From: Myxococcales bacterium
Lineage (GTDB): Bacteria; Myxococcota; UBA727; VGSZ01
Length of the DNA: 54,817 bases
Assembly (NCBI GenBank): GCA_023248635.1
Contig: JAHFED010000047.1
Coordinates: 1 to 54,817 of the forward strand
Reading direction: 5' to 3'
Both the position numbers and the translations under genes were made by a program. The notes beneath the pieces were generated by a model. That model ran no database searches. It was not told the origin of the DNA and saw nothing but the letters and a program-made list of their open reading frames with translations. How positions within the stretch are numbered: position 1 is the first letter of the stretch; each line of letters starts with the position of its first letter. Positions 6,829-45,313 of this stretch are shown here, piece by piece.

Positions 6829-6931
6829 CGACCCAGAGCCACGGGCAGCTCAGAACGGTCAAGACTTGGAGGTCTCTGCCCTCAGGGCCGGCCAAGTGCT
6901 GCGCCTCCGGTCGAGCGCATGTCGTCGCCCG

Positions 6932-7080: not shown

Positions 7081-7082
7081 GC

Positions 7083-7230: not shown

Positions 7231-7283
7231 TTGTCGCGAACTTGCCCGGCAAGTCAAGCGCACGGTCTGCTCGTGGGCAGGCC

Positions 7284-7943: not shown

Positions 7944-8009
7944 GCGGTGCCTTTCGGAGCAGGTCATCGAGCCAGGCTGTTGGCGGCGTCGAGCCGCACC
8001 GTCACGACG

Positions 8010-8489
8010 TCACCGCTTGGTCTGCTTGCGCGTCTTGGCTGCGCTGGCGCTCTTCGTCACCTTCTTCGCACCTGGCACCGACGCGCTCTTTGCGGTCTTC
8101 GCCCCTTTGGTGTCCTTGGGCTTGGCGACGAGCTTGGTCGCTTTCTTCTTGGCGCCACTTTTGGCGGCACGGGCGAGCGCGGCGCTCTGCTTGGCCCACA
8201 TCAAGAGCTCTTTGACGTCGTCGAAGGCGCTCTCGGGCGGTGAGCAGTAGGACATCTCGACGCTGCCCTTCTGCTTGTGCTCGTAGGTGAAAGGCCTGCC
8301 ACCGGCGGCTTTGAGGGTGGCCTTGAGGGCGGGGTCGGTCTTCAAGAACAAGGTGCCGTCGTCGACGACCGCAAAGGCCGCGCCATCGATGAAGAGGCAG
8401 GAGGCGCCAAACATGCGTCGCGCGCTCACCCCGCCGAGAGGCTCGAGCTGGTGCAGGAAGTGGTTTTCGAGCGAATCGGAAACAGCCAT
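8010..8489 (-). CDS. TfoX N-terminal-domain protein with lysine-rich tail
   Basis: Protein of 159 residues. Residues 1-105 match the TfoX/Sxy N-terminal domain: HFLHQLEPLGGVSARRMFG, FIDGAAFAVVDDGTLFLKTD, a Phe-Thr-Tyr strand and YCSPPESAFDD. The last 50 residues are a Lys/Ala/Ser/Thr-rich histone-H1-like tail, which suggests nucleic-acid binding. The C-terminal TfoX domain is absent. In gamma-proteobacteria TfoX/Sxy controls competence; stand-alone N-domains such as this have no settled role. Its start codon is only 27 nt from that of the divergent M1 aminopeptidase gene, so each promoter must lie partly inside the other gene. Confidence 0.87.
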   Translation of the reverse strand: MAVSDSLENHFLHQLEPLGGVSARRMFGASCLFIDGAAFAVVDDGTLFLKTDPALKATLKAAGGRPFTYEHKQKGSVEMSYCSPPESAFDDVKELLMWAKQSAALARAAKSGAKKKATKLVAKPKDTKGAKTAKSASVPGAKKVTKSASAAKTRKQTKR

Positions 8490-8516
8490 GCCTTCGCCAT
8501 ACCGCCGAGGTTTGCG

Positions 8517-11330
8517 ATGGAAAAGCGCGCGCTTCCGTTCTTTTTGCCCAAGTCCGCTCTGCTGACCTTGCTGCTCAGCAGCAACGTGCTGGCGGGTGCT
8601 GCGTCCACGTCGACATCGACCTCGCTGCCCGCCAAGACGGGCTCGCTGCCGGCGTCGTCAGCGGGGGGCACCGGGCCGTCGAAGGAGGGCGGACCGCAGG
8701 CCGGCCGATTGCCCGTCGATGTGACGCCCAAGCACCAGCGCATCGAGCTCCACATCGACCCCAAGCGCGAGAGCTACTCCGGCGTCGTCGTCATCGACGT
8801 CGAGCTGGCCCAACCCCGTCGCACCCTGTGGCTGCACGCCCGGGGGATCGAAGTGCAGAGCGCCAAGGTCTTGAGCTGTTACAAGGAACAGACCGCGACC
8901 TTCGCCATCGTTGACGACGTCGACGGCGTGGCGTCGCTGACAGTGCCCGGCGTCCTCCCGGCGGGATCCGCCACCCTGACGCTGGCTTTCACGGCAAAAT
9001 TCCACGACGACCTCGACGCCATCTACCGGGTGAAGGCCGGCGACGACTGGTATGTGTTCACGCAGTTCGAGCCCCTGGCGGCGCGCGAAGCCTTTCCCTG
9101 TTTCGACGAGCCGGGCTTCAAGATCCCCTTCGACGTGCAGATCGCGCATCCCGACGACGTGAAGGCCATCGCCAATACCGACCTCACGCCCGAGTCCAAG
9201 CGTCCGCACCCACAGCTCGCGGGTGCGCCCAACCACGAGACCTGGGTGACGAACTTCAACACGACGAAGCCGTTGCCGACCTACTTGCTGGCTTGGGTGG
9301 TGGGTCCGGTCGACGTCGTCGACGGCGCCGTCTTGCCGCCCTCTCTCGATCGCGCGGCTCCCTTGGCCCTGCGGGGCATCGCCGTGAAAGGCAAGGGCGC
9401 GCTGCTGGCCCAGAGTCTCAAGAACGCCGGCGCCGTCATCGCCTTGCAGGAGAAGATGTTCGGCATCGGCTATCCCTACGACAAGCTCGACATCGTCGCT
9501 GTGCCCGACTTCTCGGCGGGAGCCATGGAAAACGCTGGGCTCGTCACCTACCGAGACACCCTGCTCTTCGTCGACGACAAGAGCCCCATCGGCGCCCAGA
9601 AGAGTTCGCTCAGCGTCATCGCCCACGAGCTCGCCCACCAGTGGTTCGGCAACCTGGTGACCATGGCCTGGTGGGACGACCTCTGGCTCAACGAGGCTTT
9701 CGCGACCTGGTTCGCCGCCCGCACGGTTCAGGTGCTGCGGCCCGACTTCGACGGCAACCTCGACCTGCGAGAGACCGCGTCGTCGGCCATGAGCGAAGAC
9801 ACCCTGGTGTCGGCGCGCCAGATCCGTGAGCCCATCCTCTCGCGGGGTGACATCAACAACGCCTTCGATGGCATCACCTACTCCAAAGGGGCCGGCGTCA
9901 TTGCAATGTTTGAAGAATACATTGATAGAGCCAAGGGAAAGGGCACCTTCATGAAAGGGGTGTCGGCCTACCTCGGCGGCCACCGCTTTGGCTCGGGCAC
10001 GACCCCGGACTTCCTGGCGTCGATTTCGGCGGCGGCGACCATTGACATCGCTCCCGCATTCTCGACGTTCTTGGACCAGCCCGGCGTGCCTCTCGTGCAG
10101 GCGAGCTGCGCGCTCGACGGCAAGAGCAAGGCGTTGCCAGTGATGACCTTCAGCGCCCAGCGCTTTCTCCCGGTGGGCAGCACGGGTGATCGAAACAAGA
10201 AATGGGACATCCCGGTCTGCGTCAGTTTTCAGGACAAGAAAGCGCAGGTGCAGTGCGCGTTGCTCAAAGACGGCGCCGGCACCCTGTCCTTGCCCGGCAA
10301 GCAGTGTCCCAAGGCCGTGCACCCCAACGCCGACGGCGCCGGCTACTACCGCTTCGCCATGCCGGGGCCCCAACTCAAGGCCCTGTCGACGACGCTTGGG
10401 AGCATGAGCTCGGGTGAACGTCTGTCGCTGGCCCAGGCGCTGCGCGCAGGATTTTCTTCGGCCATGGTCTCGTTCAAAGACACCCTCGATGCGGCCACGC
10501 CCCTCGCCAACGACGTCGAATCCTCCATTGCCTTCACGCCTTTGAGCTTTCTGGACTTCGCCAAGGACGAAGTGCTGCAGGCACCGGCCGACACCAAAGC
10601 ACGCGCGGCCGTGGATCAGCGCGTCGTCGGCCTCTACCAGCCGCAGCTCAGCAAGCTGGGCCTGGTCGATCGCAAGAAGGACACGCCGCGCGACAAGGAG
10701 ACGCGAGCAGCCTTGTTCGGCGCCGTCGTCGACGCCGAAGGCCCGCCGCTCTCCATTGCCATCGCCGCTGGCAAGGAGCTCTTTCAAACGGGTACGACAC
10801 AAAAGCTCGCCAACGATCTCTGGCCCGCGGCCCTCGGGGCCGCCGTCGAGCACGGCAAGATCGATGCGACGGTGTGGAATGCGTGGTTGAAGACGACGAA
10901 GGCGCAGCCCGATCCCCGCCTGCGCCGCTGGATGCTGGGGGCTCTGTGCTCGACCAAAGATCCGGCATTGTCGAAGAAGGCGCTGGAGTTGGTGTTCGAC
11001 ACGGACCTGCGCGTGAACGAGGCGGCGGCCGGGCTGTGGGGACAGGCCGACGACCACGCAACCCTCGAGGGCGCCTTCGTCTTCGTGACCAGCCGCTGGG
11101 ACGAGGTCATCAAGCGCTTGCCCGAGGATTGGCGACCCGGATTGGCCAGCTCCTTTTCGGGCTTCTGTTCCGAAGAGGGCGCGAAGAAAGTGGAGGCCTT
11201 CTTTGCTCCCAAGGTGGCCGCGACGCCGGGGTTGCAACGCGCCCTCGCCCAAACGCTCGAGGAGAATCGCTTGTGCGCCGCCCGCAAGGCCGCTCACGCC
11301 GAAGGGGTGCGCGCGCTCTTTCCCAACTGA
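8517..11330 (+). CDS. M1 family aminopeptidase, exported
   Basis: Zinc aminopeptidase of 937 residues. A hydrophobic signal segment (about 5-30) and a Ser/Thr/Gly-rich stretch precede the PepN-like beta domain. The exopeptidase motif GAMEN is at about 335, the zinc site HELAH at 370-374 and the third ligand Glu at 393 in WLNEAF (HEXXH-X18-E). A long C-terminal helical ERAP1-like region (about 600-937) follows. It should release N-terminal amino acids from peptides, probably in periplasm or outside the cell; Myxococcota secrete many peptidases. ATG 8517 follows GAGG by 6 nt. Confidence 0.95.
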   Translation: MEKRALPFFLPKSALLTLLLSSNVLAGAASTSTSTSLPAKTGSLPASSAGGTGPSKEGGPQAGRLPVDVTPKHQRIELHIDPKRESYSGVVVIDVELAQPRRTLWLHARGIEVQSAKVLSCYKEQTATFAIVDDVDGVASLTVPGVLPAGSATLTLAFTAKFHDDLDAIYRVKAGDDWYVFTQFEPLAAREAFPCFDEPGFKIPFDVQIAHPDDVKAIANTDLTPESKRPHPQLAGAPNHETWVTNFNTTKPLPTYLLAWVVGPVDVVDGAVLPPSLDRAAPLALRGIAVKGKGALLAQSLKNAGAVIALQEKMFGIGYPYDKLDIVAVPDFSAGAMENAGLVTYRDTLLFVDDKSPIGAQKSSLSVIAHELAHQWFGNLVTMAWWDDLWLNEAFATWFAARTVQVLRPDFDGNLDLRETASSAMSEDTLVSARQIREPILSRGDINNAFDGITYSKGAGVIAMFEEYIDRAKGKGTFMKGVSAYLGGHRFGSGTTPDFLASISAAATIDIAPAFSTFLDQPGVPLVQASCALDGKSKALPVMTFSAQRFLPVGSTGDRNKKWDIPVCVSFQDKKAQVQCALLKDGAGTLSLPGKQCPKAVHPNADGAGYYRFAMPGPQLKALSTTLGSMSSGERLSLAQALRAGFSSAMVSFKDTLDAATPLANDVESSIAFTPLSFLDFAKDEVLQAPADTKARAAVDQRVVGLYQPQLSKLGLVDRKKDTPRDKETRAALFGAVVDAEGPPLSIAIAAGKELFQTGTTQKLANDLWPAALGAAVEHGKIDATVWNAWLKTTKAQPDPRLRRWMLGALCSTKDPALSKKALELVFDTDLRVNEAAAGLWGQADDHATLEGAFVFVTSRWDEVIKRLPEDWRPGLASSFSGFCSEEGAKKVEAFFAPKVAATPGLQRALAQTLEENRLCAARKAAHAEGVRALFPN

Positions 11331-11390
11331 CCCGACGACGCCGACCGGTTGTTTCGTTGCATGGGCGTCGCTCGTGGCTAGGTCGGAGGT

Positions 11391-12524
11391 ATGGACAGCT
11401 CAGCCCACACCCTCAGCGCGATCATCGACAAGCACCGACGTGACATCGAGGAGCGCTGGTTGGAGCGGGTCCTCAGCGGGATAGCCCCCGCCGACGGTCC
11501 AGAGGCGGCGCCGTCGTTCACCGCGTTGCGCGATGGCATCGCCGATTACCTCGACAATCTCGTCGATCTGCTGCGCGACGGCGCCGACGTCCCGGCCGAC
11601 CGGCGCATGGCCTGGGCCGACGTCGCCCGCGAGCATGGTGTGACGCGCGTGGCCCTGGGCTTCGACATCAGCCAGCTCATCCGCGAGTTCATCGCCCTGC
11701 GGCACGTCATCCTCGACGTGGCCCACGCCGAAGGGGTGGCGGTGGACGGGCCCGAAGCCCTGCTCTCGGACATCTTCGAGGCAGCGATCGCCGAAGCCGT
11801 CAGCGCCTACGTCGATGCCCGCGACTATGAGGCCCGTCAGAAGCAGGCCGAGAACATCGGTTTCATGATCCACGAGCTGCGCAGCCCCTTGTCGGCGGCC
11901 GCACTCACCGCCCAGCGCCTGCGACGGAGCGTCCCCCCAGAGCTCTTGCCCTTGTGCGACCGCCTCGATCGCAACCACCACCGGGTGGGCGCGCTCATCG
12001 ACAATCTGTTGCTGAGCCACAAGCTCGCCTCTGGAAAGATGGAGGTGACTCTTGCCGAGGTCCGGCTGGGCGACGTTCTCGAGAGCGCCACCGCCACAGG
12101 GCGAGCGGTGGCGGAGGAAAAAGGGATCGAGTTTCATTTGTCCTATGATCCCGGCATCGCCCTGAGGGTCGATCGAGCGCTCACCGAGTCCGCCCTGGTG
12201 AACGTCGTCGACAACGCGGCCAAATTCACCGACGTCGGCCACATCGACGTCAGCGTCGACGACGTCGGCGATGAGATCGTGGTGCACGTGCGGGACTCTT
12301 GCGACGGCCTGTCGGCGGCCGAGCTTCGCACCATCTTCGAGCCCTTTCGGCGGGGCTCCTCGCGCAAGCCAGGAACGGGCCTCGGTCTCGCCATCGCCAA
12401 GCGCGCCGTCGAAGCGCAGGGCGGATCGATCCACGCCGAATCCGACGGCGTCGCCGGCTGCCATTTTTGGATCACGCTGCCGAAGCATCTGCCTCGACAC
12501 GAAGAAGCGACCCCTCCGCCCTGA
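11391..12524 (+). CDS. Soluble sensor histidine kinase (RsbRD-like input)
   Basis: Cytoplasmic kinase of 377 residues with no membrane segment. Residues 1-150 are all-helical and resemble the RsbRD-type sensor domain (WLERVL..., GFDISQLIREFIALR). The dimerisation box FMIHELRSPL carries phosphoaccepting His161, the N box is NVVDNAAKF (N275), the G1 box is modified (VRDSCDGL instead of DxGxG) and the G2 box is GTGLGLAIAKRA. It has no adjacent response regulator, so its partner is encoded elsewhere. A GGAGG lies just 2 nt before the ATG, unusually close. Confidence 0.93.
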   Translation: MDSSAHTLSAIIDKHRRDIEERWLERVLSGIAPADGPEAAPSFTALRDGIADYLDNLVDLLRDGADVPADRRMAWADVAREHGVTRVALGFDISQLIREFIALRHVILDVAHAEGVAVDGPEALLSDIFEAAIAEAVSAYVDARDYEARQKQAENIGFMIHELRSPLSAAALTAQRLRRSVPPELLPLCDRLDRNHHRVGALIDNLLLSHKLASGKMEVTLAEVRLGDVLESATATGRAVAEEKGIEFHLSYDPGIALRVDRALTESALVNVVDNAAKFTDVGHIDVSVDDVGDEIVVHVRDSCDGLSAAELRTIFEPFRRGSSRKPGTGLGLAIAKRAVEAQGGSIHAESDGVAGCHFWITLPKHLPRHEEATPPP

Positions 12525-12530
12525 GGGCGC

Positions 12531-13136
12531 TCAGCGTGGCGCCGAGCGCCGCTGGAAGGTGAGCAGCAGGGCCCGGCGCAGCTCCTGGATGAGCTTGGCC
12601 TCGGGCGTCTGCGCGGCGCCGGTCTGATCGCCGTGGAAGTAGCGATCAACGACATCCAACGCCTCACGAGCCTGCTGAGATTGTTGAACCACTGTGTCTT
12701 TATTCTTTTGTTCGTTGGCGCGCTCGACGGCTTCCAATGCTTCGCGAAAGGCCCGTTCGGCCGGCGTCTCACGCAGAGGATCTGCATCGCGCCAACGTGG
12801 GCGCGCCGAGGACTCCGGGGGCGTCGACGACGTCGACTTCCCCGGCGGCGGCGGCGTGGTGGAGGGCGGCGGCGTCGACGCGGCGGTCTTGGATCGGGCG
12901 GCGGCGTCGCGAGCGCTGTCTTTTTCCTTGGCCACCAGCTCTTCAATTTGATCGAGGATGGCGTTGAGAGGTCCGAGGATTCGAGCACCCTCGGTACCCA
13001 TACTCTCGGACTGATAGGTGTATGCGAGGCAGGAGCGGGCATAGCGCAGCGCCTTCTTGCCGACCGGCGCCGCGAGCTTCAAACCCTCGGGCAAGTGGGA
13101 ATTCACCTCGTGGAGGAGCTGCTCCAGCTTGCTCAC
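12531..13136 (-). CDS. Hypothetical protein with Pro-rich hinge
   Basis: Not recognised. A protein of 201 residues starting with GTG; an in-frame TGA shortly upstream excludes a much earlier start. It has two helical parts: residues 1-70, with Cys36 in an ARSCLAYTYQ segment, and 120-195, Ala/Glu/Arg/Gln-rich and possibly coiled-coil. They are joined by a Pro/Ser/Thr-rich linker (about 80-110). No signal peptide or membrane segment is evident. It converges with the histidine kinase gene, the two stops lying 6 nt apart. A strong hairpin sits 12 nt before its start. Confidence 0.7.
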   Translation of the reverse strand: MSKLEQLLHEVNSHLPEGLKLAAPVGKKALRYARSCLAYTYQSESMGTEGARILGPLNAILDQIEELVAKEKDSARDAAARSKTAASTPPPSTTPPPPGKSTSSTPPESSARPRWRDADPLRETPAERAFREALEAVERANEQKNKDTVVQQSQQAREALDVVDRYFHGDQTGAAQTPEAKLIQELRRALLLTFQRRSAPR

Positions 13137-13147
13137 CGCCTTGGCCC

Positions 13148-13208
13148 CCTTGTCTGTGCGCCCGTCATGAAGCCGTGATTGTCATCGACGACTGGCGCAC
13201 AGACAAGG
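13148..13208 (-). terminator. Strong 14-bp hairpin between lipoprotein and hypothetical gene
   Basis: A perfect 14-bp inverted repeat, CCTTGTCTGTGCGC at 13148-13161 and GCGCACAGACAAGG at 13195-13208, separated by 33 nt. On the minus strand it lies between the stop of the BNR-propeller lipoprotein gene (13272) and the GTG of the hypothetical gene (13136). It could be the terminator of the DUF1592/DUF1552/propeller operon, though no T-tract follows. It is close enough to the GTG to affect ribosome access. Confidence 0.5.
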
Positions 13209-13271
13209 CAACCCCCAAACCCCAATAAACCCGGGGGCTGGGAGGGCCGAGCTACGCTGCGTTCGCTCAGG

Positions 13272-14408
13272 TCAGGGCGGGGGATCGCCGCCGAAGACCA
13301 GGGCGGCCAGCGCGTTGCCGTCGTCGCTGCCCACCTCGCTCCAGCCCACGAGATCGTTGGAGGCGCGGCGGCGGTTGCTCCAGGTTGCTCCGACGTAGAC
13401 GCCCCTGCCGTAGGCGACGAGCTCTTGGCCCGGTCCCGGTTGTTGTTGCCAGGCGACGCCGTCGCTCGAGGTCTGCACGCCGAAACCTCCGACGGACACG
13501 AAGCGTTCGCCATCGAAGACGACGTCCCGTCCTCCGCCTCCTTCGAAGGTCCAGTGGACCCCATCGGTGGACCGTCCGCGCGATCCATCGCCCAAGGCGA
13601 TCCAGATGCCCCTGCCAAAGGCCACGTGCTCCATGGAAGGGCCGGTGGGCGTCGACCAGGCGACGCCGTCGATGCTGGTGGAAAGGCCGTGATCTCCAGC
13701 AGCGACGAAGCGCCCTGCGCCAAAGGCGAGATCCCGCGCCTGCCAATTGAGACCGCCCACGCGTTGGGTGGTGGGATCGGTCCAGGTGACGCCGTCGTCG
13801 AGAGAGCGGATCGACCGATCCGATCCGACAGCGACGAACATCCCGTTGCCAAAGGCGCACCCCCCCAACCAGCCGCGGTCGTCGGTGAATTGGCTGTAGT
13901 CCACGCCGTCGGTGGTGGTGAGCATGCGGCCCACGCGGGATCCACCGACGGCCAGGTACACGCCGTGGCCGAAGCAGGCATCCCGCAGCAGGTCGTCGTC
14001 GTCGCCGCCGTGGGCCACGTCGGAGTGATCGTTTTGCCAAACATGGCCATCGAGCGAGGTCAGGCGCCGCCCTCCATAGCCGACCGCGAAGAAGAAGGCC
14101 GGCGCCTCCATCTCGCCCTCGCCCTCAGCGATGTCACCTTCGCCTTCGCCCTCGCCGAGGACATCGCCTTCGCCTTCGCCCTCGCCTTCGCCCTCGCCGA
14201 CGACGTCGCCTTCCCCTTCGCCTTCGCCGAGGACATCGCCTTCGCCTTCGCCGACGACGTCGCCTTCGCCTTCGCCTGCGGGATCGAGGCGGGCAGCTCC
14301 TTCGCCCTCTCCGCCCTCGGGCTCGACGTCGACGCGCGCTCCACGGTCCACGAGCGTGCACGCGGCCAGCGTGAGGGCAGCGATCAGGACGAGATCGAGC
14401 CCTCTCAC
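13272..14408 (-). CDS. BNR/Asp-box beta-propeller lipoprotein
   Basis: Lipoprotein of 378 residues starting with GTG; lipobox LAAC gives Cys17. After it comes an acidic low-complexity linker (about 25-105) of GEGEGD repeats, then a propeller built of repeated SxDGxxW motifs (SLDGHVW, SLDDGVTW, SIDGVAW, STDGVHW, SSDGVAW), the Asp-box seen in sialidase-like folds. Catalytic sialidase residues are not evident. It is likely displayed on the outer membrane. Its GTG overlaps the TGA of the DUF1552 gene (GTGA), so it is the third gene of that operon. The linker DNA at about 14118-14290 is a CCTTCG-type hexamer repeat. Confidence 0.85.
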   Translation of the reverse strand: MRGLDLVLIAALTLAACTLVDRGARVDVEPEGGEGEGAARLDPAGEGEGDVVGEGEGDVLGEGEGEGDVVGEGEGEGEGEGDVLGEGEGEGDIAEGEGEMEAPAFFFAVGYGGRRLTSLDGHVWQNDHSDVAHGGDDDDLLRDACFGHGVYLAVGGSRVGRMLTTTDGVDYSQFTDDRGWLGGCAFGNGMFVAVGSDRSIRSLDDGVTWTDPTTQRVGGLNWQARDLAFGAGRFVAAGDHGLSTSIDGVAWSTPTGPSMEHVAFGRGIWIALGDGSRGRSTDGVHWTFEGGGGRDVVFDGERFVSVGGFGVQTSSDGVAWQQQPGPGQELVAYGRGVYVGATWSNRRRASNDLVGWSEVGSDDGNALAALVFGGDPPP

Positions 14409-15793
14409 GCCAGCGCCTCGAGCGGGCCCGAGCAATCGATGCGCGTGCCATTGGGGGTGAAGACCTCGGTGACGCCGACCGACGAGAGATCGGCGCCCAC
14501 GGCCCGTCCGACGCTCACCCACAACTTGTTGTGCGCCGGTCCGATGGTCGGCGTGAAGTTGGGGAAGTTCGTCGCCCGCGAGGGGTTCGGGACGTCGGCT
14601 TTCAGGTAGATGTAGCGCCCGGGACGAACGAGGCCGCCGCCGATGACGACGGGCCAGGGTCGATAATTGTGAATGCCGTCGGCGAGCTCGCTGACCCACA
14701 GCACCGCACAAGAATCCAGCAGCGTGCCTTCGCCTTCGGGTACCGCATCGAGCCTCTCGAGCAGCGACGCGAACTGTCGTGCATGACAGGCCCCGTAGTT
14801 GGTCATCATCTGCCGCGCGAAGGCGTCGTTCTCCTGCTGGTGCGCGAAGTCGGCGTGCACGTCGCCAGGGGGTGCGCCGATCTGCTCGTTGTTGAGTTGG
14901 TCCATCTGGATGGTCACGACCCGCGTGAGGTCGCAAGCGAGGGCAGCGGTGGTCAGGCCGAACATCGCCTCCGCCCGCGACTCGTAAAACGACGCGTCGT
15001 CAGAACCGTTGAGCTGCGGCGACGAGGGACGGGAGCATTGGTTCATCGGCGCCGGACTCTGCAGTCGCGTCTCGATGTCGAAAACCAGATCGCGGTGCAG
15101 CTCGAGCTTTTGGCGATCGGCTCCCGAAAGGCGGGGCGCGACGGCGTCGTATTCGCGTTTCACGAGGTCCAGCACCGAGCCCTGGGCGGCTGCGACGCGG
15201 TCGGCGTTGGTCGGCGTCGAGCCAACGAACGAGGTGGGAAAGAGCCGGTCGTAGACGTTGTTGGGATTGCGATCCGGCGAGATCGATTGCCCGACGTCGC
15301 GCCACACCGCGCCACCATTTCTGGTTCCGACCACGGCCAGCTCGAGGGAGTCCAGCCGTCCCTGCGCGCGGATCTGTCGAGCGACGATTTGATCGATGGA
15401 AGGGCCGCCGGCGTTGCCGTTGACGAGCTGGGCACAGGTGAGCGCGCCCCGCGTGCCCAGATCGTGACCATTGCCGATCACGTCGGCCTCCACCGAGGTC
15501 ATCGCCAAGCCATCGACGACGACGAGCTTGCGCCTCAGGGCATGCAAGGGCTGCAGCACCTCACTGAACTCACCCAGAGTCAGGGACGTCAGATCGGCGG
15601 AAAAGTCGGCCGTATCGCCGACGCCGCCGGGGCGCATGCGCCAGTTTCCATACACGGTGCCGTGCTGGGTGAAGAAGATGACCAAGCGCTTGGGAGCTCG
15701 GGGCAGCCCGGCGCGAACACGCGAGGGGAGAAAGAGGCTTCCGCCGAGCAGACCAGCAGCAGCGAGAAGTCGTCGGCGATTGGAGCGCATCAT
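14405..15793 (-). CDS. DUF1552 family protein, Tat-type export signal
   Basis: Protein of 462 residues of the DUF1552 family. The N-terminus RSNRRRLLAAAGLLGG resembles a Tat signal with a twin/triple Arg followed by a hydrophobic stretch. Recognisable family pieces include FTQHGTVYGNWRMRPGG, VVDGLAM, NGHDLGTRGALT, VFDIETRLQ and FAHQQEND. The family resembles sulfatase/alkaline-phosphatase-fold DUF1501-like proteins but has no established reaction. It is nearly always paired with DUF1592-type proteins in Myxococcota and Planctomycetes, as here. Start chosen at the first ATG of an ATGATG pair because it gives an ATGA overlap with the upstream gene. Confidence 0.9.
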   Translation of the reverse strand: MMRSNRRRLLAAAGLLGGSLFLPSRVRAGLPRAPKRLVIFFTQHGTVYGNWRMRPGGVGDTADFSADLTSLTLGEFSEVLQPLHALRRKLVVVDGLAMTSVEADVIGNGHDLGTRGALTCAQLVNGNAGGPSIDQIVARQIRAQGRLDSLELAVVGTRNGGAVWRDVGQSISPDRNPNNVYDRLFPTSFVGSTPTNADRVAAAQGSVLDLVKREYDAVAPRLSGADRQKLELHRDLVFDIETRLQSPAPMNQCSRPSSPQLNGSDDASFYESRAEAMFGLTTAALACDLTRVVTIQMDQLNNEQIGAPPGDVHADFAHQQENDAFARQMMTNYGACHARQFASLLERLDAVPEGEGTLLDSCAVLWVSELADGIHNYRPWPVVIGGGLVRPGRYIYLKADVPNPSRATNFPNFTPTIGPAHNKLWVSVGRAVGADLSSVGVTEVFTPNGTRIDCSGPLEALA

Positions 15794-17577
15794 GGGTTCA
15801 CCTGTCGGGGCAAGAAGCGGAAAGAAGAGCTCTTCACGATGGCCACCAAGAGCTCGCGAAGGTCGCCGTCGGCGGCGCGGAATTGAGCGGTGACGTCGTC
15901 GATGGCGGGCCAGTCGACGTCGTCTTCGGTGCGGCCGCGCGTGTAGGTCAGCCATTGCCGGGCCACGCACTCGTTCACGATGTCGCTGCCGGCCAAGAGC
16001 GTGGCCAGCCCGGGTCCGCCGCGGAAGCTGCCGCCGATGCCGCTGTCTTCGAGGCTGCCGCTGTCGTCGACCGGAAAGCCGTTGTCGACGGTGCGAAAGC
16101 GTCCTGTGGCGTCATAGCCCTCGAGGCCCATACCGATGCCGTCGATGCCCGCGTGACAGGCCTGACAGAAGGGATCGGCGCTGTGTCGGGCATAGCGCTG
16201 CCGGTTCGTCGTCGGCGCCGGCACATCGGCCTCAACCGGCGGCGTGGTGTTCACCGCGCTCGAAGGGGTCGGCGGCGCTGCGCACAAAAAGCGATCGAGC
16301 ACATACACGCCGCGCAAGACGGGAGAGGGAAAGACCGCATGGGAGCGGCTGGCGAGGAAGGCCGCCTGGGTGATGACGCCGGCGCGCTCTTGCGTCGGCA
16401 GCTGCACCAGGTCCCAGTCGTTTGCCGGCGGGGGCACGCCATAGAGCTCGGCCAGGCTGCGGTTCACCCGCGTCGTCGTCGTCGTCAGCAGCGAACGCAG
16501 CCTGCCGTCGCCACTGCCAAAGACGGCCTCGGCGATGAGCTTGTCGGCCTCGGTGCGGATCGATTGGCGCAGCTCCTCGGTCCACGCAGGATAGGTGGCC
16601 GCATCTCGACTGGCGGTGAGGACGTCGTCGTAGTCGAGCCATTGGCGGTGAAAGGAGAGCACGGCATCTTGGGCGCGCGGATCGGCGAGCAGGCGACGGG
16701 CCTGGGCCTCGATCTCCGGGGGCGTGCCCAGGGCGTTGGCGTCGGCGGCGGCGAAGAGATCCTCGTCGGGCATCGAGGCCCACAGCAGATAAGAGAGGCG
16801 ATTCGCCATCTCATAGGACCCGAGCGCGGTGCGATCGTCGTCGACGGGATCGGCGCCGAGCTCGATGCGATACAGGAAGGAGGGCGATTGCAGCAGCGCG
16901 GCGATGGTGAGTTGCAGGGCGACGTCGAAGTTGTCGGCGGCGAGTCGGGCGTCGAAAAACGCGCCGTAGGCGTCGAGCTCCCGCTCTTGCAGAGGACGCC
17001 GCAACGCGCGGGGGCCCAAGGTGGCGATGAGCTCGTGTCCCAGCGCGCGCTGGTCTTCCCGATCGGCAGAGGGCAAGCGAGGCAAGAGCAGGTCCTGGTG
17101 GGCGACGACGGCGGCAGCGACGGCGACGGCGGCGACGCGCACTTGTTCGACGGCGAGATCCGAGGGCGTTTGGCGAACGACGTCGCCCTCGTACCCTTTG
17201 CCGTCGCCGTCGCTCACCACCACGGGCGCCAAGGCGATGCCACTGAAGAGATCGCGCAAGGTGTGGTTGAGCTCCTCTTGCGTCAGCCGGCGCAGGGGAG
17301 CGCTGGGTGCACCCAGGCTGGTGGTCGGCGGCGGCGGCGGCGGATCCTCAGGCGGATCCCCGGGCGGATCGCCGGGTGGAGGGTCGGGCGAATCCCCGGG
17401 TGGTTCAGCGGGCGGGTCGCCGGGTCCGATGGGCAGCCAGGGCAGCAGCGGCGGACGCTTCTCCCCGTTTGGTGTTTTTGAGCGCGGGTCAGACGATGCG
17501 GTCGATGAGGGAGGGCAGGCGGTTGAAAAGACGACGACCGTCAGCGCGGCCGCCACGAGGGCTGTTGTGGTTCTCAT
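15790..17577 (-). CDS. DUF1587/1595/1592/1588/1585 lipoprotein
   Basis: Lipoprotein of 595 residues (lipobox VFSTAC, Cys21) with a Pro/Asp/Glu-rich spacer (about 35-85). Domains in order: DUF1587 (RRLTQEELNHTLRDLF), DUF1595 (ALRRPLQERELDAY), DUF1592 (YEMANRLSYLLWASMPDE to FHRQWLDYDD), DUF1588 (ERAGVITQAAFLASRSH) and DUF1585 (CQACHAGIDGIGMGLE). CQACH is a c-type heme attachment motif, so the protein may bind heme. Such multidomain proteins are frequent in Planctomycetes and Myxococcota without a defined function; redox chemistry with the coupled DUF1552 protein is plausible. First gene of the operon; the ATG at 17577 begins the signal peptide. Confidence 0.9.
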   Translation of the reverse strand: MRTTTALVAAALTVVVFSTACPPSSTASSDPRSKTPNGEKRPPLLPWLPIGPGDPPAEPPGDSPDPPPGDPPGDPPEDPPPPPPTTSLGAPSAPLRRLTQEELNHTLRDLFSGIALAPVVVSDGDGKGYEGDVVRQTPSDLAVEQVRVAAVAVAAAVVAHQDLLLPRLPSADREDQRALGHELIATLGPRALRRPLQERELDAYGAFFDARLAADNFDVALQLTIAALLQSPSFLYRIELGADPVDDDRTALGSYEMANRLSYLLWASMPDEDLFAAADANALGTPPEIEAQARRLLADPRAQDAVLSFHRQWLDYDDVLTASRDAATYPAWTEELRQSIRTEADKLIAEAVFGSGDGRLRSLLTTTTTRVNRSLAELYGVPPPANDWDLVQLPTQERAGVITQAAFLASRSHAVFPSPVLRGVYVLDRFLCAAPPTPSSAVNTTPPVEADVPAPTTNRQRYARHSADPFCQACHAGIDGIGMGLEGYDATGRFRTVDNGFPVDDSGSLEDSGIGGSFRGGPGLATLLAGSDIVNECVARQWLTYTRGRTEDDVDWPAIDDVTAQFRAADGDLRELLVAIVKSSSFRFLPRQVNP

Positions 17578-38305: not shown

Positions 38306-38731
38306 ATGATCCTTCGGAAGGTTGCCTCCCTCATCGCGCCCACCGCCGCGTTGATCGCCGTGGGTGCGCTGGCCAACGTGCCGCCGCGCAGGGTCCCGCC
38401 GGTGCCCAAGGAGTTCCGCCTGCACGGTGACGCCAGCAAGGGGCAAGCTGTCTACGTCTCCAGCTGCGCCTCCTGTCACGGAAAAAAAGGCGACGGTCGC
38501 GGCGTCGCCGGACTCGCTCTCGTGCCACCACCAGCGGCCTTCGACGACGCGAAGCGCATGGCCGGCGTCACCGACTGGGAGCTCTTCCTCGCGGTCTTCT
38601 CCGGCGGCCCGAGCGTGGGCCTCGCAGCCACCATGCCGCCGTGGGCGGGCACGCTCACCGAGCAGCAAATCCACGACGTCGTCGCCTTCGTGAAGACGAT
38701 GATGATGAAGCCCAAGCCGAAGGCCCCATGA
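38306..38731 (+). CDS. Exported monoheme cytochrome c
   Basis: Class I c-type cytochrome of 141 residues. A hydrophobic N-terminal segment (about 5-24) acts as signal peptide or anchor. Heme attachment motif CASCH is at 54-58, the likely sixth ligand is Met110 in ATMPPW, and the terminal helix ends in a Lys/Pro-rich tail. It shuttles electrons in the periplasm. It overlaps the next gene by ATGA, and that protein also has a heme motif, so the pair may form a transport route toward the outer membrane (inference). Confidence 0.93.
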   Translation: MILRKVASLIAPTAALIAVGALANVPPRRVPPVPKEFRLHGDASKGQAVYVSSCASCHGKKGDGRGVAGLALVPPPAAFDDAKRMAGVTDWELFLAVFSGGPSVGLAATMPPWAGTLTEQQIHDVVAFVKTMMMKPKPKAP

Positions 38732-39894
38732 AGCTCTCACCCGCCGTTGGCATCGCTGTTTTCGCCTGCACGCTCTGCAACTCCGCGCGCGCGATCCCTG
38801 CGTTTGCCCGCAAATTCAACTTGCCCTGCTCGACGTGCCACATCGCGCCGCCCTATTTGAACCCGACCGGCCGGGCCTTCCTCGAGGCGGGCTACCGGCT
38901 GCCCGACGAAGACGGCAACGTCGACGAAGCGATGCAGCACCACCAGGTGATCAACGACAATCTCGTGCTGGAAAAGATGTTGCCCTGGGCAGCACGGGTG
39001 CGTTCGGTGGCCATCGACAAACAGACCGACAGTGCCGCGCAGATCCAGCCCCTGGCAGAGCTCGAGTTTTCGACGATGGGAAATTTCTACCGGACCGGCT
39101 CCTTCCACCTCGCGGCCGGTGGCGAATTCGACGAGGGCTTCGCCTTCGGCGGCGACGGCTTCATTGGCATCCACCCCTCGCGCTGGTTCAACGTCGTCGG
39201 CGGCTTTGGCTCGGCGATGTCGGCTGACCCCTACAACACCTTTCGCACCGAGGACCACGGCCTCACGGTCAAGACCAAAGCCGCCTTTACCGAGGGACAT
39301 CAGTCCGCCGTCGCCGTCGTCGACGATGCCAGCTTCGTCACCGCCTACGGTCGCGCCGGCATCCTCTTTTACAGCGGTGGCATCGCGCTGACGCCGGGTG
39401 AGCTGGACCCCGAGCACCCCGGCGTCGTGATGGCACGGGTCGCTGTCGACGCCGTCGACGGCTTGACCATCGGAGCCTTCGGCCTGGGAGGGCGCCGCGC
39501 CGCCGCCGCCGACGGCGAGGGGCCGGCGGAGGACGCCAGCCTGTGGCGGGCCGGAGCCGACCTGAACGCGACCCTTTTCGACGTCACAGCCAACGTCGTG
39601 TTCGTCGTCTCCGGTGACCAGCTCGAGGGGTCTGCACACGAGATCACCTTCGGCGGCTTCGTTGAGGCGCTCTACGCTTGGCGGTTGGATGGGCGCCCAG
39701 CACTCTTGCCTGTGGCCCGACTCGACTGGGTACAGCGCGACGGCGACAACGTCCTGGGTGGGGTCGTCGACCTATCGAGCTACGTCTTTGAGAACGCGCG
39801 CGTCGGCGCCGAGCTGTCGTACGAGCAGGTGCTGACGACGAGCGACGACGCGGGCGTGGGCCGCGGCTCGGTTTTCCTCGATCTCGTGTTTTGA
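38728..39894 (+). CDS. Outer-membrane barrel-like protein with N-terminal heme motif
   Basis: Protein of 388 residues with a signal peptide (about 1-22), then FNLPCSTCHIAPPYLNP carrying a c-heme motif (C34, C37, H38), and some 300 residues of alternating strands rich in Gly and aromatics (RWFNVVGGFGSAM, GRAGILFYSGG, ENARVGAELSYEQVL) ending in FLDLVF. The terminal Phe is the usual signal for outer-membrane barrel insertion. A small heme-bearing head on a barrel suggests transfer of electrons across or at the outer membrane (inference). It is translationally coupled to the cytochrome c gene. Confidence 0.85.
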   Translation: MKLSPAVGIAVFACTLCNSARAIPAFARKFNLPCSTCHIAPPYLNPTGRAFLEAGYRLPDEDGNVDEAMQHHQVINDNLVLEKMLPWAARVRSVAIDKQTDSAAQIQPLAELEFSTMGNFYRTGSFHLAAGGEFDEGFAFGGDGFIGIHPSRWFNVVGGFGSAMSADPYNTFRTEDHGLTVKTKAAFTEGHQSAVAVVDDASFVTAYGRAGILFYSGGIALTPGELDPEHPGVVMARVAVDAVDGLTIGAFGLGGRRAAAADGEGPAEDASLWRAGADLNATLFDVTANVVFVVSGDQLEGSAHEITFGGFVEALYAWRLDGRPALLPVARLDWVQRDGDNVLGGVVDLSSYVFENARVGAELSYEQVLTTSDDAGVGRGSVFLDLVF

Positions 39895-40030
39895 TCTCTC
39901 GATGCTCAAGATGCGAGCGCGTCGCCAAGTCCTGTGTGGCCTGGTGTCGGCTGGAATTTGGACGCTGGCCGACCCATATGTTAGAGAGAATCACGCCGGT
40001 TTTACTTGATATTTCAAGGAGTTGACTACG

Positions 40031-43000
40031 GTGTCCTCTGCAGGCGCCCGAGTGTTGTTGCTCTCGCGGCGCGAGGCTTTTCGCGCGCCGTTGCAGCAGG
40101 CCTTCGAGCTCGCGGGCATCGCCGTCGTCGTGGCTGTGGACGTCGACACCGCTGGGCCCGTGTTTGCCGATCTCAAAAGGCCCGTGCCGGTGGGGGTCGT
40201 CGTCGACCTGCTGAGCATCGACAGCGACGCCGCCGGTCTTTGTCTCACGGTGCACGCGCGGCCCGAGGCTGCCAGCACCCCGGTCCTCTTCATCGGCACC
40301 GGACACGAGAGCATTCGTTCGACGGCCGATGCCCTGAGCATGGGCGGTGACGGTTTTTTTTCGCTGCCCGTCGATGCCTCTCGCGTCGTCGCCAAGGTCG
40401 CCAGCTATCTGGGCATCCCCGTGCCTTCTTTGCCCTCGCTCTTGCTGACGGCGAATCCCAAAGGCCCAAACGACGACGACGCTCCTACGCTGAGTCTCAC
40501 GGCCCCCTTGCGCGTGCGCAGCCCGCCGCCGCTGCCGCCCGATGATTTCGCCGACACCACGCCCTATCCCTTCGTGGCCACCACGCCGAGCGCTCTGCCG
40601 TCGTTGTCGGGACCGCTGAGCTCCCTCGGCTCGCGCGAGTCATTTCCGGTGCGATCGACCGAGGCCCCGCCGACGCAGGCCTATCGCTTCGACCCGCGCC
40701 AGCTCGAGGAGGTGCGCACCGACGACGAAAACCGCGCGTTGCTCGAAGTGGAGCAAGAAGCCCGCGAGCGCGAAGCCAAAGCCGAGACGCGCAAGCTGCA
40801 GGCCTTCGACGAGCTGCGCCGCCGACAGGAGGCCAGCCGTGCCACCGCTCTTGCCGCCGAGCGCATTGCCGACGAAGAGCTGCAGGAGCAGCAACGCGCC
40901 CAAAGCGCCGAGGCCGACGAAAGCCGCTTGGAGCGGCTCTTCGCTGCCCGTGCTCCAGAGGGTGCTGCGCCGACAGCCCCCACGCCGGATCGGACCGAGA
41001 TCCTTCGCCGCCCGACCCCACCCACGCCCGCCAGCAGCGAGGACCACCAGGCGGCGCTGCGCCAGTTGGCCGCCAATCTCGAACGCCGCCGCCGTGCCGA
41101 CGAAGCCATCTTTGACGCCGATGCCCAGGATGTGGAGCGCCAGGCCGACGCAGAGCGGCGGGTCGAGGACGAACGCCGTCGTCGGGAAGAGCTGCAGGCC
41201 CACAACCACGCTCTGGCCGAGCGCGAGCGAAATGCCGCCGTCGAGCGGCAGGTCGAGGAAGCCGCAGCCCGTCATCGCGAGGAGCTGGCCGCGACAAAAG
41301 AGCGCCAACGCCAAGCGGCGGCGGAGGAGCAAGCAGCCGAAGCCGAACGTCGTCGAGCGGAGCTGCAGGCTCTGCAACACGCCATCGATGAGCGGGAGCG
41401 CCGCGCCCAGGCCGAGCAGCGGGAGCAGGAGCGTCACGCCGAAGAAGCCAGGCAGACCGAGGAGCTCGAACGTCGTCGTCGCGCCACCCAGGCCGCCGCC
41501 CTCGAGGAGGCCGCGCGCCAGGCCGAAGAGGCCCGGGTGCAAGAGCTCGAAGCCCGTCGTCGCCAATTGGAGGAGGAAGGCGAACGCTTCGTTGTCGAGC
41601 AGCAGGCGCAGCGGGCCAGCGAAGAGGCCCGGCTGCAGGAAGTCCGCCGACGACGGGAGGAGGCCGAGCTTGAGGCCCGCCTCTTCAACGAGCAGCGCGA
41701 CCAGCGCTTGGCCGAGGAAGCCGCCGAGCTCGAATTCCTCAGCCTCCGTCGTGCCGAGCAGGAAGCCGAGCTGCGCCGCGTACAGGAGGTGCAAGCCCAG
41801 CGACAGGCGGAGGAAGAGCGCGCGCTCCAAGAAGCCCAAGAGCGCCGTCGGATCGTCGCCGAGCAGGAGGCGCGCGAGGACGAGGAGCGTCGCGCGCGCA
41901 TCGCTGCCGAAGAAGCACGGCTGCGCAGCCTCGCTTTGGAGCGCGAGCGTTTGGCCGCCGAGCGCGATCAGGTGACGTCGACGTTGCAGGCCCATGAGGG
42001 GCAAGAGCGCCTGCGTTTGGCGGAGCTCGAGATCGCGCGCCGCCACTCCGAAGAGGCCTTCGCCCAGGCCCGGGCGGCGACGGCTGCGCTCATCGACAGT
42101 GAAGAGAGCCGACTGCAGGCTCTGCGCAAAGAGCGCACCGACAAAGAGAGGGACGCGCAAGCCCTCATCGACGAACAACGGCGCCGGGGGCAAGAAGAGC
42201 AGCAACGGCTCGAGGAGCTGATCCGCGAAAAGCGGCAACTCGAGCAACGCGCCGTCGAGTTGGCCAAGCAAAACGCCGACCGCGAAATGCTGGCGCGCGC
42301 GCGTCTCGCCGAGCTCGAGATCAGCCGCTTGCGCGCCGAAGAAGACTTCGCCCGCGTACAACAGGAGCAGCAGCGAAGAGAGGCCGCCGCCGCCGCCGCC
42401 GTCGCCCACGCCGCCGAGGAGCAACGCCAGCTCGAAACGCAGCTGCAGGCGCGCAGCCTGGCCCTGGCCGAGGCCGTCGCCGCCGAAGAGGCACGCCTGC
42501 GCGCGCTGGTGTTCGAGCGCCAACGTCGCGACGAAGAAGGCCGGCGCGCGGAGATCGAAAGCCAGCGACGCTTGCAGCAGGAAGAAGAGCGACTGCAGCG
42601 ACTGGTCGAACGCTCTGAAGCCGAACGCCGCGCCGCCGCCATCGACGCCGTCCGACTCGAGCAAGAGCGCGCCGACCGCGCAGCCGAAGCTGAGGCCCGC
42701 CTGCAAGAGTTGGCAGAACAAGCGCGGCGCGAGGCCGAGCAATTGGCCAGCCTTCGGGCCGACGAAGAAGTCGCGCGGGCGGCCCTGCAGGAGAGCCGCT
42801 CCCGCGCACGCTTGGCCTTCGTCTCGGGGCGCTTCGATGCCGTGCCCGGGGGCATCGCGCTTCTCGCCGACGATGTGGGCAGCGAACCCCGGGCGGTCGG
42901 TGACGGTGTGGGAATGCCCTTGGGCGGGCCCTTGCGCGACGTCGACGTCGAACCCGCCGAGGCACCTCCTCCGCTCCCCTTTGTCGCGCTGGAGCCCGCA

Positions 43001-44059
43001 GAGGGGCGCTTCGACGACGGCGAGCTGCCGGCCTTGCTGTGGTCGGCGTCTTTGCTGGGCGTCACGGGCGCCATCGACCTGAGCGATGAGAGCGGCGGCG
43101 TGCGCCGTCTCTTTCTCGAGGAGGGCGAGCCGGTGTTCATGACGTCGTCGATGGCGGCCGACCGGCCAGAGGAGATCCTCTTGCGCGGCGGGTTGGTGAC
43201 CGCCGCTCGTCATGCCCGGTTGCGCGCGGCGCCGTCGACGTCGGGTCGGCGGATGTGTGCCCAGCTCGTCGACGACGGTGTGCTCAAGCTCGACGAGCTC
43301 TTCGCCGCCGTGCGCGGGGTGCTGACCGAGCAGGTGTTGGCGCTGCTGGAGTGGAGCCGGGGCACCTTCCGTTTCGTTCAGGAGCGCGCCTTTGCCGCCG
43401 ATCGGGTGCGCTTGTCTCACGCGCTGCCGGCCCTCATCGCCGAGGGCGTGCGCCGCAAATTCGACGAGGAGCGCCTGTGGGCTGTGCTGGGGGGACCGCA
43501 GACCCTGCTCGGTCCGCAGACCCGGGCGCCGGGGGGCGTGTTGCCGCCGCTGTCGGCGGAGGAGACGCTGGCTTTGGCTCGCCTCGATGGCACGCGGGCC
43601 CTTGACGACGTCATCCTCGAGAGCGGGCTGCATCCCCACGTGGTGCTGCGGGCGGCCCTGATCGGTGTGACGACGGGGGCGGTGCGGGTGCTGGCGCGCG
43701 GCCTGCCCCGTGGCCCGGCGGAGATCGTGGCCCGTCGAGAGCGCAGCGTGTCCATCGACCGGGCCCGGGTCGTTGACCGGCTCGCGCTGGGGCGGCACGG
43801 CGATTACTTCACTTTCCTGGGCGTCGACGTCGAGGCCACTCCCTTCGAGGTGCACCGCGCGGCCCAGCGCCTGCGCGAGCGGTTCGCGCCCGCCCGCTAC
43901 AACGACAGCGCCTTTGCCGACCTGCGGGCGGCCTTGCAGGAGATCATCGACGTCGTCGGCGACGCCGAAGCGGTGCTGGCCGAACCTGGGCTGCGCGATT
44001 CCTATCGCCAGAACCTGCGGCAGTCGGCGACCGTGCTGCCCCTGCGCCAGCGCGGGTGA
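40031..44059 (+). CDS. AglZ-like giant: pseudo-receiver, coiled coil, PATAN region, J-like end
   Basis: Protein of 1342 residues. Residues 2-125 form a receiver-like domain: the Asp position is kept (VVVDLL) and TPVLFIGTG fits the switch strand, but the conserved Lys is replaced (FFSLPVD), so it is probably a pseudo-receiver. A Pro-rich spacer leads to a huge Glu/Arg/Ala/Gln coiled coil (about 226-923). Next is a DUF4388/PATAN-type region (about 995-1230; LPALLWSASLLGVTG, RRLFLEEGEPVF). The end (about 1256-1330) resembles a J-domain (YFTFLGVDVEATPFEVHRAA) without an HPD. AAGGAG lies 9 nt before GTG 40031, preferred over TTG 40022. Receiver plus coiled coil recalls AglZ/FrzS motility scaffolds. 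Confidence 0.85.
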   Translation: MSSAGARVLLLSRREAFRAPLQQAFELAGIAVVVAVDVDTAGPVFADLKRPVPVGVVVDLLSIDSDAAGLCLTVHARPEAASTPVLFIGTGHESIRSTADALSMGGDGFFSLPVDASRVVAKVASYLGIPVPSLPSLLLTANPKGPNDDDAPTLSLTAPLRVRSPPPLPPDDFADTTPYPFVATTPSALPSLSGPLSSLGSRESFPVRSTEAPPTQAYRFDPRQLEEVRTDDENRALLEVEQEAREREAKAETRKLQAFDELRRRQEASRATALAAERIADEELQEQQRAQSAEADESRLERLFAARAPEGAAPTAPTPDRTEILRRPTPPTPASSEDHQAALRQLAANLERRRRADEAIFDADAQDVERQADAERRVEDERRRREELQAHNHALAERERNAAVERQVEEAAARHREELAATKERQRQAAAEEQAAEAERRRAELQALQHAIDERERRAQAEQREQERHAEEARQTEELERRRRATQAAALEEAARQAEEARVQELEARRRQLEEEGERFVVEQQAQRASEEARLQEVRRRREEAELEARLFNEQRDQRLAEEAAELEFLSLRRAEQEAELRRVQEVQAQRQAEEERALQEAQERRRIVAEQEAREDEERRARIAAEEARLRSLALERERLAAERDQVTSTLQAHEGQERLRLAELEIARRHSEEAFAQARAATAALIDSEESRLQALRKERTDKERDAQALIDEQRRRGQEEQQRLEELIREKRQLEQRAVELAKQNADREMLARARLAELEISRLRAEEDFARVQQEQQRREAAAAAAVAHAAEEQRQLETQLQARSLALAEAVAAEEARLRALVFERQRRDEEGRRAEIESQRRLQQEEERLQRLVERSEAERRAAAIDAVRLEQERADRAAEAEARLQELAEQARREAEQLASLRADEEVARAALQESRSRARLAFVSGRFDAVPGGIALLADDVGSEPRAVGDGVGMPLGGPLRDVDVEPAEAPPPLPFVALEPAEGRFDDGELPALLWSASLLGVTGAIDLSDESGGVRRLFLEEGEPVFMTSSMAADRPEEILLRGGLVTAARHARLRAAPSTSGRRMCAQLVDDGVLKLDELFAAVRGVLTEQVLALLEWSRGTFRFVQERAFAADRVRLSHALPALIAEGVRRKFDEERLWAVLGGPQTLLGPQTRAPGGVLPPLSAEETLALARLDGTRALDDVILESGLHPHVVLRAALIGVTTGAVRVLARGLPRGPAEIVARRERSVSIDRARVVDRLALGRHGDYFTFLGVDVEATPFEVHRAAQRLRERFAPARYNDSAFADLRAALQEIIDVVGDAEAVLAEPGLRDSYRQNLRQSATVLPLRQRG

Positions 44060-44065
44060 GGTTCA

Positions 44066-44230
44066 GATGTTCAAGACGCTGGCGCGTCGTGAAGGTCAGA
44101 TGTTCAAGACGCTGGCGCGTCTTGAAGGTCAGATGTTCAAGACGCTGGCGCGTCTTGAAGGTCAGATGTTCAAGACGCTGGCGCGTCTTGAAGGTCAGAT
44201 GTTCAAGACGCTGGCGCGTCTTGAAGGTCA
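44066..44230. repeat. Array of five 33-bp units with a perfect hairpin
   Basis: Five head-to-tail copies, each with TTCAAGACGC-TGGC-GCGTCTTGAA (10-bp stem, 4-nt loop) starting at 44070, 44103, 44136, 44169 and 44202. Units are identical apart from one base in copy 1 (GTCGTGAA). It starts 7 nt after the AglZ-like stop and ends in the stop region of the convergent lipoprotein gene. No spacers, so not CRISPR; it may terminate both transcripts. Related copies are at 23.5 and 31.7 kb. Confidence 0.95.
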
Positions 44231-45313
44231 GTCAACCTCTGGACACTGGTCGGGGCTGCCGACGTGGAATTGCTGATCCTTGTTGATCGGACAGTTGGCG
44301 CCGTTGAGGGGTTCGGGGGGCAAGAAGGAGGAGCAGAACAGCGTTCCTGTGACCCGACCGGAGCCGCAGTGGTCGCCCTCTTGGAAATAGACCGAGGAGC
44401 TTCCGCTGGTGTTGGCCACACAGCCGCGGTCGTCGCCGCCTTGCAGGTGGATGTCGCAGCCGACCGGGAAAGGGGCTGAGGCGGGACAGCTCGCCGTGAC
44501 GCAGTCGCCGTCGACCAAGAGGTTCAAGGTGATGGGATCGCAGCTGTTGTCGATGCCATCGCAGTTTTCGTCGACGCCGTTTTCGCAGACTTCGGCTCTG
44601 GGGGTGCAGGCTGGCGGCGGCTCCTCGGGTGGCGGCGGCGGCTCCTCGGGCGGCGGCTCCTCGGGCGGCGGCTCCTCGGGCGGCGGGACCGGCGGCGGGA
44701 CCGGCGGCACCTCGGGGAGCTCGCAGGTGAGCGACGCCGGGACGAAGGTGGTTTGTCCGGTGGTGACGATCAGCGCGAAGTCTCGGGCGAAGGCGCTGCT
44801 GCGCACCTCGAGCACGCGCTCGCCCGCCGGCACGTCGCTCAAGCGGAACGTGCCATCGGCGTTCGTGCGGCCTTGGCGTGCCGTCTCGGTGCCATCGGCG
44901 TTGTCGACAAAGACCGAGACCAGAGCGTCGTTCAATGGAGCGCCGTCGAGGCCGCACAGCTGACCCTCGATGGTGCCGACCGCGGCCGGCACCAGACGAC
45001 AGGCTTCGTCGACGACGACGGTGCTGACGCCGCTCTCCACCACGGCTGGGAAACGACGGGCAGCGGCAGCTACGCCCACCACCACAACGTCATCGCCGGG
45101 GCTTACGACGCCAAAGGTGTAGCGCCCTTCGCCGTCGGTGCCGACGACCGCGCCGTCGTTTTCCAAGCGCACTGCAACGTTGGCCAGTGGGGCGCCAGTC
45201 ACTGCATCGCAGACCTGGCCGTCGATGCGTCCTGGGACCACGCCCAGCGGGTCGTCACATTGGCAGGCCGAAAGGAGCGACAAGACGGCAGAGACGACGA
45301 AGAAGCAGCGCAT
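44228..45313 (-). CDS. Lipoprotein with carboxypeptidase-regulatory-like domains
   Basis: Lipoprotein of 361 residues; lipobox LLSAC gives Cys17. Two CarboxypepD_reg-like beta-sandwich modules follow (about 30-110 with GQVCDAVTGAPLANVAV and TDGEGRYTF; about 113-195 with GQLCGLDGAPLNDALV and TNADGTFRLSDVPAG). A Pro-Glu-Glu linker (about 200-238) leads to a Cys-rich end including ENGVDENCDGIDNSCD, an acidic metal-binding motif often seen in myxobacterial surface proteins. Likely anchored in the outer membrane; no enzymatic role is apparent. The stop overlaps the edge of the 33-bp array, which separates it from the convergent AglZ-like gene. Confidence 0.86.
   Translation of the reverse strand: MRCFFVVSAVLSLLSACQCDDPLGVVPGRIDGQVCDAVTGAPLANVAVRLENDGAVVGTDGEGRYTFGVVSPGDDVVVVGVAAAARRFPAVVESGVSTVVVDEACRLVPAAVGTIEGQLCGLDGAPLNDALVSVFVDNADGTETARQGRTNADGTFRLSDVPAGERVLEVRSSAFARDFALIVTTGQTTFVPASLTCELPEVPPVPPPVPPPEEPPPEEPPPEEPPPPPEEPPPACTPRAEVCENGVDENCDGIDNSCDPITLNLLVDGDCVTASCPASAPFPVGCDIHLQGGDDRGCVANTSGSSSVYFQEGDHCGSGRVTGTLFCSSFLPPEPLNGANCPINKDQQFHVGSPDQCPEVD

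Follow-up and report, generated by a model that had tools for sequence, protein, structure and literature searches.

A gene at 40031-44059 on the forward strand of contig JAHFED010000047.1, from a Myxococcales bacterium (GenBank assembly GCA_023248635.1), encodes a 1342-residue protein that is probably a cytoplasmic, phosphorylation-independent scaffold so far undescribed. The gene was analysed within a stretch of 54,817 nucleotides, referred to here as the window. The protein consists, in this order, of a receiver-fold head, a charged helix of ~700 residues, a DUF4388/PATAN domain, a winged-helix-like segment and a J-fold end. It appears to be kept by most sampled Myxococcota, the model family included, without a name or a family description in the libraries searched. 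We are highly confident of this anatomy and of the existence of the family. The gene and its parts are as follows.

40031..44059, + strand: whole gene for the 1342-residue protein (open frame; plus-strand frame conserved in orthologs)
40016..40021, + strand: Shine-Dalgarno-like AAGGAG, read from the sequence, with a spacing of 9 nt to the GTG
40043..40420, + strand: pseudo-receiver head, residues 5-130 (Pfam and NCBIfam on the slice, orthologs, AlphaFold2, Foldseek, site table)
40706..42805, + strand: long charged helical rod, residues ~226-925 (composition, hydrophobic periodicity)
41471..42814, + strand: ~14 degenerate 32-residue repeats, residues 481-928 (autocorrelation z = 8.1 against 1000 shuffles)
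43001..43459, + strand: DUF4388/PATAN domain, residues 991-1143 (Pfam E=1.2e-10; 24/24 orthologs; AlphaFold2 model)
43556..43696, + strand: winged-helix-like segment, residues ~1176-1222 (AlphaFold2 secondary structure: helix-helix-helix-strand)
43802..44017, + strand: J-fold domain, residues 1258-1329 (Foldseek; DnaJ in orthologs; motif table)

The plus-strand frame is open over 40022-44059, and its likely start is the GTG at 40031. A 1071-residue antisense frame (40640-43855) was rejected as a gene; it is a by-product of high G+C content, and conservation sits in the plus frame. Clusters of seemingly conserved frames without a function were left aside, being for the most part spurious frames antisense to conserved genes. 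Head and tail were analysed separately, as low-complexity rod matches had spoiled the tail boundaries in L064, L066 and other relatives.

Concerning the head, the slice alone gave a weak match to Response_reg in Pfam (E=0.002), and Response_reg matched 13 of the 16 orthologous heads, the best at 1.6e-17. The AlphaFold2 model of the head (predicted local distance difference test (pLDDT) 88, predicted template modelling score (pTM) 0.85) matched receivers in Foldseek with a probability of 1.00, FrzS (2i6f) being found at rank 8. The original prediction had described a receiver-like head in which the Lys is replaced. This was borne out, with L112 at the Lys position, and the acidic pair (now S12 and R13) and the Thr/Ser (G89) have been lost too. 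Among the acidic pair, Asp, Thr/Ser and Lys that define a canonical receiver, only D59 remains, together with the aromatic F109. None of the 16 heads had a complete active site, Gly occupied the Thr/Ser position in 15 of them, and the Asp position is Ser, Asn or Gln in many orthologs, D59 being kept in the window protein and its nearest relatives. Judged from the sequence and the model, the head has a receiver fold unable to run the usual phosphorylation cycle.

In the tail, the PATAN domain (PF14332) was detected with 41.9 bits against a cut-off of 25. Both this domain and a J-like end without the His-Pro-Asp (HPD) motif had been foreseen in the original prediction. The J-like end of the window protein gave only weak matches in NCBIfam (ActJ 7e-4, DnaJ 8.5e-3), and DnaJ matched 18 of 24 ortholog tails, with a best value of 2.3e-9. 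When the AlphaFold2 model of the tail (pLDDT 93.6) was examined with Foldseek, the top 31 PDB matches were J domains with a probability of 1.00; their E-values were 0.04-0.4, weak values that reflect the match of a single domain within a 366-residue query chain. Nothing below E = 0.001 was obtained with the whole tail in Foldseek, and no structural match was found for the PATAN or the winged-helix-like part. J proteins require the HPD motif to stimulate Hsp70. In the window protein its position is occupied by A1286-P1287-A1288, the motif was present in none of the 24 family tails, and one clade has D-P-H throughout. By model and motif, the protein ends in a J fold without the motif that activates Hsp70. 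Since no head has a complete receiver site and no tail has HPD, both losses are family-wide and not peculiar to the window gene. The winged-helix-like segment, which had escaped the original prediction, was named by no family in the libraries searched, including Pfam. It is the best-conserved stretch between the window protein and its same-genus ortholog L063 (76% identity).

The ~700 residues of coiled coil expected between head and tail correspond to the charged helical rod. Its hydrophobic period is 3.556, that is, 32 residues in 9 turns, and a mixed heptad-hendecad coiled coil would be the simplest reading of this 32/9 periodicity. The 32-residue repeat, likewise absent from the earlier description, also occurs in L065 and in L063, where the period is 3.555 and the power reaches 37.6 (shuffle maximum 7.6), and is without a counterpart in the L064 rod. 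The rods of L055 and L058 carry 14/28-residue heptad repeats, those of L049, L051 and L052 carry 8-residue repeats without a clear hydrophobic period, and L053 has hardly any rod. This last relative (G002:C26), from the same genus, has a 593-residue open frame, 37% identical, in which head, PATAN, winged-helix-like and J-like parts are recognizable; it is either a fast-evolving ortholog that lost its rod or a paralog. Between the window protein and L063, identity was 54-76% in the ends and 33% in the rod, and the nonsynonymous distance (dN) was ~0.45 in the head, 0.28 in the tail and 0.78 in the rod, with a synonymous distance (dS) above 1. These sequence comparisons indicate that both ends are under constraint and that the rod between them evolves freely.

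We examined the distribution of the family. Tail identity to relatives was 66% within the genus, 62% within the family, 55% within the order and 33-40% in other Myxococcota families. A scan of named loci found 24, all from Myxococcota or from 'Deltaproteobacteria'/unclassified metagenome bins, and those named orthologs that are complete have the same order of parts, with a receiver-like head at the start. At E below 1e-22, a threshold that lets in some paralogs, the tail profile matched 168 of 195 Myxococcota genomes. The window protein agrees with this family in part order, in tail homology and in the degeneration of both motifs. The four-part chain had been put forward as seemingly new; as a peculiarity of one protein this does not hold, as the part order is conserved through the Myxococcota. 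No report of the architecture was found in open-licence papers, and the original PATAN paper (Makarova 2006) may describe such fusions. Genomes carrying FrzS at 83-98% identity, and therefore belonging to the Myxococcus family, have family frames of ~1450-2400 residues. The receiver and J modules were likely both active in an ancestor, a statement based on the distant relatives L054, L056 and L057 and not on a rooted tree.

In terms of gene neighbourhood, at least 12 distinct relatives, ranging from the window's family (L065) to Myxococcaceae-like members (L055, L058), have priA as the immediate upstream neighbour in the same orientation. From this shared linkage we argue for vertical descent of the family gene. 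The linkage has no counterpart in the window, in the same-genus ortholog and in several other relatives. In relatives, conservation near the family gene extends to rpe and to an unrelated lipoprotein-like gene. An operon with the window neighbours was rejected, as none of them showed conserved synteny. In the phylum sample, the family gene and a FrzS-type receiver were both present in 160 genomes and both absent from 16, the family gene alone was absent from 11 and FrzS alone from 8. Within the window's order, families of only 0.3-2.8 Mb genomes (G004, G006-G015) are without the family gene and without a FrzS-type receiver, other members having 6-8 Mb; there is strong genome reduction inside this order.

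As for function, we tentatively propose by analogy, at slightly less than an even chance, that the scaffold docks a partner via its PATAN domain, plausibly a PilB-type ATPase, and has a role in surface motility. The rod would dimerise or oligomerise the protein and set a distance, and the head and the J-like surface would act as passive docking faces. The operative partner would be bound by PATAN and would most plausibly be a PilB-family ATPase, the extension motor of type IV pili; the scaffold would place or regulate a surface-motility machine in the cell, as FrzS does through other contacts. According to a passage of PMC10519157 that cites Han 2022, Synechocystis has PATAN regulators that bind its pilus motor PilB; PixE is one of them (PMC7690835). 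PATAN genes have been found near MglA/MglB genes (PMC4316618), and SgmX, an activator of pili in M. xanthus, shows co-occurrence with two PATAN proteins (PMC11580455). The genome under study encodes PilB (771 bits) in a pilus cluster. The original prediction had suggested a polarity or motility scaffold linking signal input to protein docking; we retain the docking scaffold, and the polarity or motility role is possible by analogy only.

Several observations weigh against this proposal. No motility gene adjoins the family gene in the window or in any relative; the neighbour that is conserved is priA. Nearly every sampled genome has a PilB-type ATPase, whether or not it carries the family gene, and this distribution does not discriminate. 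The joint absence with the FrzS-type receiver sits mostly in a few reduced lineages; because of this concentration it is a hint only and not independent evidence, and the tail-profile threshold admits paralogs. Moreover, as PATAN is widespread in this genome (21 DUF4388 matches in ~19 frames), PilB binding is not to be assumed. A broader version of the proposal, which we regard as a long shot, is a phylum-wide scaffold with receiver and J as passive docking faces and a lineage-specific rod formed by repeat expansion (32, 14/28 or 8), which would steer the site of a PilB-type motor and, via an ancestral priA operon, tie it to the replication cycle.

The pilus cluster (L112, G000:C102:112000-131500) contains, at 3536-16135, pilR, pilS, pilC, pilT and pilB, followed by aroE-like, ribF-like and kinase genes. 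A different PATAN-receiver protein is encoded there at 14222-16135, ~3 kb from pilB. In one 956-residue frame of the genome (C45:2726-4000), DUF4388 lies next to a stretch that matches the PilB family in its N-terminal part, and two frames, on C132 and C113, have split DUF4388 matches.

We weighed several other explanations. The protein might be tied to replication or the cell cycle, its ancestral place directly after priA, on the same strand at at least 12 distinct loci across families, reflecting a shared role such as tethering replication-restart or chromosome machinery to a cellular location. We consider this unlikely; the linkage is lost in the window and was not seen in several other relatives, the conservation of rpe and the lipoprotein-like gene nearby fits a housekeeping stretch rather than a pathway, and neither PATAN nor pseudo-receivers have a known tie to replication. 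An Hsp70 adaptor, in which the J-like end would still recruit DnaK despite the lost HPD and bring it to the pilus motor, has a precedent in Nostoc, where DnaK1, located at leading poles, depends on DnaJ3 for motility and gives a two-hybrid interaction with PilB (PMC9239167). The J fold is indeed retained, but the absence of HPD from all 24 family tails makes this improbable. To the idea of a long structural filament, a cytoskeletal coiled-coil protein whose end domains merely anchor or cap it, we also give little credence. The long rod with its regular 32-residue repeat and the frames of up to ~2400 residues in Myxococcus-like genomes would suit it, whereas the rod is short or missing in many orthologs in which the ends persist, and for this reason the rod is not the conserved function.

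The protein had originally been described as AglZ-like with added domains. An AglZ or FrzS ortholog that gained domains would explain the shared plan of pseudo-receiver and coiled coil, and FrzS is among the PDB matches of the head. The window protein has, like the FrzS/AglZ group, a receiver fold unfit for phosphorylation and a coiled coil after the receiver, and of the features of that group (PMC1974792) the aromatic is kept as F109. However, the residue at the position of FrzS His92 is not His, the head lies outside the FrzS/AglZ clade, and there is a PATAN-J tail. The same genome has its own FrzS (G000:C27:17919, a 536-residue frame, 42% identical to the receiver of M. xanthus FrzS) as well as a FrzS/AglZ-type protein (C9:176520, a 1184-residue frame). 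The PATAN-J tail found no match in these two proteins, nor in the AglZ-type proteins L107 and L108. In the head tree, the FrzS/AglZ heads came together (93/90) and the window head was placed with the PATAN-J family (92/83 and 100/99), support at the deep forks being modest and the branches of L064 and L053 long. We thus find it very hard to believe that the protein descends from AglZ or FrzS, although support for the separate groups is moderate. Hardly any room is left, too, for a conventional response regulator that is switched through phosphorylation at D59. This residue is kept in the window protein and its nearest relatives, but nothing remains of the acidic pair, the Thr/Ser or the Lys, and many orthologs have replaced the Asp itself.

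Outside the coding region, a further feature was found that the original prediction had not described.

44063..44231, no strand assigned: tandem array of five 33-bp units, all containing the palindrome TTCAAGACGC-TGGC-GCGTCTTGAA, not part of the protein (tandem repeat finder, sequence)

The array begins 3 bases past the stop codon, its first copy of the palindrome has a mismatch, and the fold of the hairpin array gave z = -11. The genome has 435 places with the palindrome, frequently arrayed at steps of 33-34 bp, and none with the reversed control; the unit is a dispersed element resembling repetitive extragenic palindromic (REP) sequences. The palindrome is also present beside the FrzS/AglZ-type gene (C9:176059-176431). 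The gene upstream in the window (38641-39894, + strand) encodes a secreted protein that has a single CxxCH motif and whose repetitive body is rich in beta structure; it may be an outer-membrane haem protein.

Next to FrzS and AglZ, the protein would rank as the third scaffold built on a pseudo-receiver, and as the first whose two classical switch modules have both gone dead across the family. Pseudo-receivers are common yet poorly understood (PMC12632262). With this family one can test directly whether non-cyanobacterial PATAN domains act on pilus motors, and its orthologs, which differ in the length and repeat of the rod but retain the ends, form a natural series for asking about the purpose of such rods.

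Among known systems, FrzS of Myxococcus xanthus is a pseudo-receiver and coiled-coil scaffold that works without Asp phosphorylation (PMC1974792). Like the window protein, it has an N-terminal pseudo-receiver bearing Gly at the Thr/Ser position and then a coiled coil; it is cytoplasmic, as the window protein probably is. Its Lys105 is retained and its Asp position is occupied by Ala (PMC1974792), where the window protein has Leu and Asp, respectively, and unlike the window protein it has no PATAN, winged-helix-like or J-like part. AglZ of M. xanthus shares the pseudo-receiver, a very long coiled coil and a comparable overall length. The Myxococcaceae-like L107 and L108, called AglZ from their architecture and a conserved His/Tyr and not by the M. 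xanthus AglZ sequence, end in a disordered Pro/Ala tail, and their heads fall in a group other than that of the window head. The cyanobacterial proteins PixE, PixG, LsiR and PatA combine PATAN (DUF4388) with a receiver, and some bind PilB. They differ from the window protein in their short length, in having PATAN at the front and an active receiver, and in lacking both the rod and the J-like end. Finally, three proteins of the same phylum (L054, L056 and L057), with the order receiver, PATAN, winged helix, J and tetratricopeptide repeat (TPR), have head, PATAN, winged-helix-like and J parts in the same order as the window protein, and their tails match the window tail in BLAST (E 1e-11 to 1e-19). 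Unlike the window protein, they have kept the acidic residues, Asp and Lys of the receiver and an intact HPD, have no rod, and carry a C-terminal TPR-like extension.

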